From assembly GCA_015068245.1 (NCBI GenBank), contig SVKU01000011.1, forward strand, positions 1 to 64,000: a stretch of 64,000 bases of DNA. Reading direction: 5' to 3'. The notes under the pieces were generated by a model. The model searched no databases. It worked only from the letters and a program-made list of their open reading frames with translations, and was not told the DNA's origin. Below are positions 30,544-63,109 of this stretch, piece after piece. Position 1 is the stretch's first letter, and every line of letters begins with the position of its first letter. The DNA is from Oscillospiraceae bacterium. Its GTDB lineage: Bacteria; Bacillota; Clostridia; Oscillospirales; Oscillospiraceae. The position numbers were made by a program, and so were the translations under genes.

Positions 30544-30690
30544 ATCCGCCAGTTGCCTCCCTCTGATGAGGGAGGTGGCACGGCAAAGCCGTGACGGAGG
30601 GAGAGAAAAATAACTACCCCTCAGTCTGCAAGGTCAGCAAGCTGACCTTATGCAGACAGCTCCCCTGACAAGGGGAGCCAAGGAGGGCGA
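30544..30690. repeat. GTGGCACGGC..GCCGTGACGGAGGGA palindromic element, empty form
   Basis: Left half: hairpin CTCCCTC-tgat-GAGGGAG, then GTGGCACGGCAAAGCCGTGACGGAGGGAG. A 15-bp spacer follows. Right half: CCCCTCAGTCTGCAAGGTCAGCAAGCTGACC..GCAGACAGCTCCCC-TGACAA-GGGGAGCC. The same left and right halves flank the DUF559 gene at 62613, so this looks like the non-autonomous form. It lies in the gyrB-gyrA gap. Confidence 0.8.
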
Positions 30691-62466: not shown

Positions 62467-62554
62467 CTTACTCAAATTTGTCGAGCGGATATAAGGGCGC
62501 ATTTCTACACACTGCTCGGTGTAGTGAGTTATTTGTGGGTTATGCACCGTAAAA

Positions 62555-63007
62555 AAAGCCTTCCTTGTGTAAAGGGAGGTGGCACGGCGTTAGCCGTGAC
62601 GGAGGGATTGTCATGCAGAGAAAGCATAATAAACAGTTGGTTCCATTGGCAAAGCAGCTGCGAAAAGAAATGACAAAGGAAGAACGGCATCTGTGGTATG
62701 ATTTCCTGCATTCCTACCCTGTCCGTTTTTCCAGACAAAAGGTGCTTGGAAAATATATAGCCGATTTTTACAGTGCAGAAGCAAAACTTGTCATCGAGCT
62801 GGACGGCTCCCAACACTATGAAGCAAGTGAAATTCAAAAAGATGCAGATCGAACTGCTTTTCTGGAAGGTTATGGTCTTATCGTTATTCGTATTCCTAAT
62901 AACGAAGTCAACAGAAACTTCCGTGGAGTTTGTGAGTATATCGATGCTGCAGTAAAACAATCCCTCAGTCAGCTTCGCTGACAGCTCCCTTTACACAAGG
63001 GAGCCTT
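62555..63007. mobile_element. inverted-repeat element carrying a DUF559 gene
   Basis: Terminal repeats CCTTGTGTAAAGGGAG (62563-62578) and its exact reverse complement (62985-63000). Each end has an inner hairpin (CACGGCGTTAGCCGTG; GTCAGCTTCGCTGAC) and an inner GAGGGATTG/CAATCCCTC pair that abuts the gene. The same end sequences without a gene occur at 30544-30690. The element thus resembles a gene-bearing copy of a small palindromic repeat. Confidence 0.7.
62613..62981 (+). CDS. DUF559 (Vsr-like/PD-(D/E)xK) endonuclease-domain protein
   Basis: A 122-aa protein with an intact DUF559 nuclease fold: LRKEMTKEERHLWYDFL, FSRQKVLGKYIADFYSAEAK, and the catalytic region VIELDGSQHYE, plus RIPNNEV near the C-terminus. 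Related to very-short-patch repair endonucleases; presumably cuts DNA. The ATG is preceded by GGAGGGATTGTC, where GGAGGG is part of the left terminal repeat, so the repeat supplies the ribosome-binding site. The last codons (SLSQLR) are written by the right repeat. The whole gene is therefore embedded in the element. Confidence 0.85.
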   Translation: MQRKHNKQLVPLAKQLRKEMTKEERHLWYDFLHSYPVRFSRQKVLGKYIADFYSAEAKLVIELDGSQHYEASEIQKDADRTAFLEGYGLIVIRIPNNEVNRNFRGVCEYIDAAVKQSLSQLR

Positions 63008-63029
63008 TCCGAAACCGATACACAACACA

Positions 63030-63068
63030 AAAACCGACCTATGATCGTAACCATAGGTCGGTTTAACT
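63030..63068 (-). terminator. terminator of the third solute-binding protein gene
   Basis: AAACCGACCTATG-atcgtaac-CATAGGTCGGTTT, with A/T runs usable in both directions. Confidence 0.8.
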
Positions 63069-63109
63069 GTTTTACGAAGCCCTGCCGAATTTCCGGGCCG
63101 TTATTTGTT

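Follow-up and report, generated by a model that had tools for sequence, protein, structure and literature searches.

A predicted DUF559 nuclease gene nested between inverted repeats of the intrastrand triplex type

Short folded repeats that occur in inverted pairs are known from several bacterial systems. In the REP/RAYT (TnpA-REP) systems and REPINs (PMC3116915, PMC2817692, PMC8266576), short hairpin repeats form inverted pairs, many copies are gene-less, one or a few copies of a gene are flanked by the repeats, and gene and repeat type co-vary. The partner gene there encodes an HUH Y1 transposase. MITE/IS pairs likewise have terminal inverted repeats, with autonomous and internally deleted copies. 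The BoxC/PIT/TM_ECO intrastrand triplex motifs consist of a pyrimidine arm, a purine arm and a mirrored purine strand, and triplex formation in vitro has been shown for TM_ECO (Holder 2015, PMC4666352). They were noted in E. coli in the 1990s and are abundant in E. coli, Neisseria and cyanobacteria, but their way of spreading has been unexplained. The dedicated survey lists 23 E. coli sites, including five pairs in inverted configuration of one type A and one type B, and states that no transposase or integrase remnants were found near them (PMC4666352).

Here we analysed a 64-kb stretch of Oscillospiraceae DNA (contig SVKU01000011.1, positions 1 to 64,000, hereafter the window), in which a DUF559 gene lies between two inverted hairpin units of about 50 nt. 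We found that this arrangement is general for one DUF559 subfamily, which suggests that gene and repeats form an undescribed type of mobile element.

The element in the window and its gene-less counterpart

The features of the window are as follows.

62555-62611, plus strand: left terminal unit, with end AAAG (62555-62558), pyrimidine arm CCTTCCTT (62559-62566), loop GTGTA, purine arm AAGGGAGG (62572-62579), inner hairpin CACGGC/GCCGTG (62583-62598), mirrored purine strand GGAGGGA (62601-62607) and TTGT
62613-62981, plus strand: DUF559 gene of 122 aa, YcjD-like, predicted nuclease of the EDxHD/Vsr fold
62957-63008, minus strand: right terminal unit, AAAGGCTCCCTT GTGTA AAGGGAGC, inner hairpin TGTCAGCGAAGCTGAC, TGAGGGATTGT
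30555-30606, plus strand: left unit of a gene-less (non-autonomous) element, CTGATG/GAGA variant
30617-30682, minus strand: right unit of the gene-less element, with a spacer of about 15 nt between the two units

The gene product matched PF04480 with E 3e-29 and 101.5 bits, against a curated cut-off of 20.6. The inverted repeats comprise arms at 62555-62584 and 62979-63008 (30 nt, 87%, including the 16-bp perfect core CCTTGTGTAAAGGGAG) and at 62597-62611 and 62957-62971 (15 nt, 93%). The Shine-Dalgarno sequence (GGAGGG, 62601-62606) and the last codons of the gene (AGT CAG CTT CGC TGA) are repeat sequence. Read from the outside inward, each unit is a pyrimidine arm, a short loop, a purine arm, an inner hairpin and a second purine stretch which mirrors the first (left: CCTTCCTT GTGTA AAGGGAGG, TGGCACGGCGTTAGCCGTGAC, GGAGGGA; right: GCTCCCTT GTGTA AAGGGAGC, TGTCAGCGAAGCTGAC, TGAGGGA). 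Both units fold as DNA far better than shuffled sequences (z -4.5 and -5.0). A blind three-strand detector run over the window found these two units and the pair at 30556-30604 and 30617-30678, plus two weak hits of other character, and none in a shuffled window.

The initial annotation had described the gene between inverted repeats and read it, together with the 30.5-kb element, as an autonomous/non-autonomous pair comparable to REP/RAYT but with a nuclease. This interpretation is supported by our results, though that DUF559 carries out transposition, and that the mechanism is new, remain inference. One point needs correction: the 30.5-kb element was said to have the same ends, but it has the same layout and not identical ends. 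Its CTGATG loop and GAGA tail match the repeats around the second DUF559 gene of the genome better than those at 62.5 kb. The three-strand layout and the extension of the pairing to E. coli ycjD and other phyla had been missed.

The genome has exactly two DUF559 genes, and both lie in such repeats, of two different subtypes. Of nine further places found by the left-unit pattern, eight have an inverted partner 38-136 nt away. One of them (G000:C20:42670-43701) keeps the start and the end of the DUF559 gene between repeat units with the middle lost (SNNSQGICEYLDAAVKQSLQR), which is how a gene-less copy would arise, and it is a likely autonomous-to-non-autonomous intermediate. The element often sits inside a larger recurring intergenic module, as at 62480-63075 in the window and at seven other loci, with CTATACACC and CGGTGTAGTG on the left and AACCGACCTATGATCGTAACCATAGGTCGGTTTAACTGTTTTACGAA on the right. 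Parts of this module recur in the genome, and it resembles a terminator-bearing repeat.

Repeats beside DUF559 genes in other genomes

A scan by protein motif alone returned 80 homologues. With a detector requiring arm, purine arm and mirrored strand, 78 of 79 testable loci have a unit on at least one side and 67 on both sides (145/158 windows, against 22/1246 control windows from the same loci, p 4e-156). In an even sample of the family 28/30 loci have one (45/60 vs 6/169 windows, p 5e-28), although the repeat sequences differ. In E. coli and plasmid loci of Deinococcota, Pseudomonadota and Cyanobacteriota 15/18 do (21/36 vs 7/121 windows, p 5e-11). Of 18 loci sampled across the phylum, almost all weaker-scoring DUF559 subfamilies, only 3 are hits, so the link belongs mainly to the YcjD-like subfamily. 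An independent inverted-repeat score placed 21/30 and 69/76 loci above the 99th percentile of controls. A 79%-identical element was seen in a Chloroflexota MAG (Anaerolineaceae UBA6105), which may be horizontal transfer or mis-binning.

The repeat sequence differs between lineages and tracks the protein: protein similarity correlates with hairpin similarity (Mantel rho 0.36, 0/2000 permutations). Over 150 family genomes, three repeat patterns occur in 30/41 genomes with DUF559 and in 19/109 without (p 3e-10). At least four copies are present in 17 vs 4 genomes (p 4e-8), and the mean is 6.2 vs 0.67 copies (p 3e-12), about tenfold, although these tests are not corrected for host phylogeny. Eleven of the 41 DUF559 genomes lack all three patterns, though these cover only part of the repeat diversity. 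On the other hand, four genomes (G046, G096, G010 and G049 in our sample) hold repeats without DUF559. G046, which is 100% complete, has seventeen left-type units, and in the eleven examined no partner unit was found within 450 nt, only a GTTT tail.

The layout of the unit is that of the intrastrand triplex motif known as BoxC, PIT or TM_ECO, when one mismatch and a long second loop are allowed. The E. coli consensus CCCTCNCCCN3-6GGGNGAGGGN3GGGNGAGGG is not matched, because the arms and loop 2 of the window differ. In the window family the second loop is a long covarying hairpin, and the published finder allowed loops up to 6 nt, so such units would be missed (PMC4666352). Motifs of this kind are found beside the E. 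coli and cyanobacterial DUF559 genes examined. Site 9 of the survey (1351204-1351239) lies 168 nt from ycjD (1351407-1351760), the DUF559 gene of E. coli, and ycjD itself ends on CCCTCTCCC TGA. By rough arithmetic, a gene falls this close to one of 18 sites by chance in about 0.3% of cases. A triplex-type motif (CTCTCCCTGTGGGAAAGAGTTAGAGAGAGGG) also lies just upstream of a Neisseria DUF559 gene.

The inner hairpin clearly covaries: 82% of 50 distinct loops form a stem of at least 4 bp (0.7% when shuffled), with 17 different stems. The mirror relation is only modestly better than direct repetition (0.718 vs 0.664 with swapped arms; direct 0.693 vs 0.658), and the arms are nearly symmetric, so this alone does not prove a triplex. 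The polarity of the unit also differs between lineages, with the third strand towards the gene in the window family and away from it in Deinococcus. No match above threshold was found in Rfam. We found no paper linking DUF559 to repeats or inverted repeats, nor any in searches on triplex repeats and on REP/MITE, in a literature search that left out bioRxiv and most subscription papers.

Element ends, genomic contexts and the predicted enzyme

In 35 distinct flank pairs the ends are sharp (AAAG/CC...GC/CTTT), and conservation drops to background within 3-4 nt outside the outer hairpins. No consistent target-site duplication was seen in these 35 flank pairs. Gene-less pairs have family-specific spacers. 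DUF559 elements lie at three different places of the hpa cluster in three Deinococcus, and also between sufB and sufC, between paaD and paaZ, and between pntA genes. The sufB-sufC region is uninterrupted in Azospirillum (844 vs 1301 bp). In the genus of one further genome (G117), the left flank is conserved in at least 14 relatives but the match stops before the element, and the right flank is not conserved. At one locus, a direct repeat of about 50 nt of the left flank reappears shortly after the right end, as if the element sits in a tandem duplication.

In E. coli, the hrpB-mrcB BoxC pair is absent in UTI89 and others (about 100 bp shorter), and the alx-sstT pair has an internal-deletion allele. 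In some strains (e.g. FXCREC035) a different sequence with a 100-aa ORF replaces the BoxC pair between alx and sstT. The ycjD gene itself is patchy, with a place covering at least 80% of the query in 3330 of 5375 genomes with a match. Strains without ycjD carry other genes there, so they are not clean empty sites.

The gene evolves under strong purifying selection (median dN/dS about 0.07). Pfam hits of the protein are DUF559 and related nuclease families only, and defence libraries gave only weak nuclease-domain hits. The AF2 model, of moderate confidence (pLDDT 70), matches 3HRL, a N. gonorrhoeae DUF559-like protein (Z 10.2), the homing endonuclease I-Bth0305I (3r3p, Z 8.6) and Vsr (1vsr, Z 7.6). 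E23/E24, D51, D64 and H68 are invariant among 32 homologues. The 13- and 4-residue spacings equal those of D102-D115-H119, proposed as active site in Caulobacter VsrA, another DUF559 protein (PMC12907096).

A possible class of mobile repeat

Our preferred reading, held with fair but not full confidence, is that 62555-63008 is the autonomous form of a small mobile element. Two inverted copies of a BoxC/PIT-type unit are its ends, and the single gene, a YcjD-like DUF559 protein of predicted Vsr/EDxHD homing-endonuclease fold, is its cargo and probable mobility enzyme. Gene-less pairs such as 30555-30682 would be non-autonomous derivatives moved in trans. Co-mobility of gene and repeats is well supported, but no movement was observed, and that DUF559 drives it is inferred. 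We speculate that the purine-rich strand of a unit folds into a hairpin or triplex when single-stranded, for example at the fork, and that the nuclease recognises its cognate unit and nicks or cuts at its base. Repair might then copy the element to the broken site (homing into related repeats), or a cut copy might be joined at a new site, without a fixed target duplication. All of these steps are inferred.

Such an element works like REP/RAYT in logic, but its partner is a predicted PD-(D/E)XK/EDxHD-fold nuclease and not an HUH transposase, the defining feature of that family, and its unit carries a third, mirrored purine strand. So we do not place it there. Compared with MITE/IS pairs, it has no DDE or other known transposase, no target duplication was found in the flanks compared, and its ends are folded units. 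Compared with I-Bth0305I and Vsr, whose fold and catalytic-type residues it is predicted to share, the gene is not in an intron or intein, was not seen next to a cytosine methylase, and is nested between inverted repeats.

The main rival, which we consider unlikely, is that the repeats spread by some other process and DUF559 is a selfish homing endonuclease gene which cuts gene-less repeats and is copied into them by gene conversion, spreading only between repeats. It fits with I-Bth0305I as the closest solved nuclease besides a DUF559 protein, with the residues conserved as in EDxHD/Vsr enzymes, with repeats in genomes without DUF559 (G046, G096), and with no consistent target duplication being seen in the 35 flank pairs. 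However, repeat number is about tenfold higher where DUF559 is present, the spacers of gene-less pairs are family-specific and not the two halves of an uninterrupted site, and the arm sequence tracks the protein.

It is less probable still that gene and repeats are passengers moved together by unknown host or element machinery, with DUF559 giving some other benefit. The enzymatic role is unproven and repeats without DUF559 exist, but the same nuclease subfamily is found in the repeats across phyla, no other gene was seen in the pairs examined, gene and repeat co-vary, and the element has no second candidate enzyme. A role as Vsr-like housekeeping nuclease that processes triplex/hairpin structures, with the adjacent repeats as regulatory sites, is very unlikely. 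Caulobacter VsrA is linked to DNA damage in cells (PMC12907096), and the repeats carry the Shine-Dalgarno sequence and C-terminal codons. But the gene is patchy (44/150 family genomes, and ycjD in E. coli) and sits in unrelated contexts, and this role would not explain inverted pairing with sharp ends. Chance insertion of one gene into one repeat is excluded by the enrichment in three samples and by the tracking of repeat type with protein.

It is somewhat more likely than not, in our view, that the bacterial intrastrand-triplex repeats (BoxC/PIT and relatives) are the ends of an ancient, cross-phylum superfamily of mobile elements, mobilised by their own DUF559/YcjD EDxHD-type nuclease through recognition of a folded (hairpin or triplex) DNA end. 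A partner gene that sits inside or beside these repeats across phyla gives a concrete, testable answer. It would add a mobile-element class that uses a Vsr/homing-endonuclease fold and a folded DNA end instead of a known transposase, and would give a role to DUF559, a common family of unknown function that has a solved structure (3HRL).
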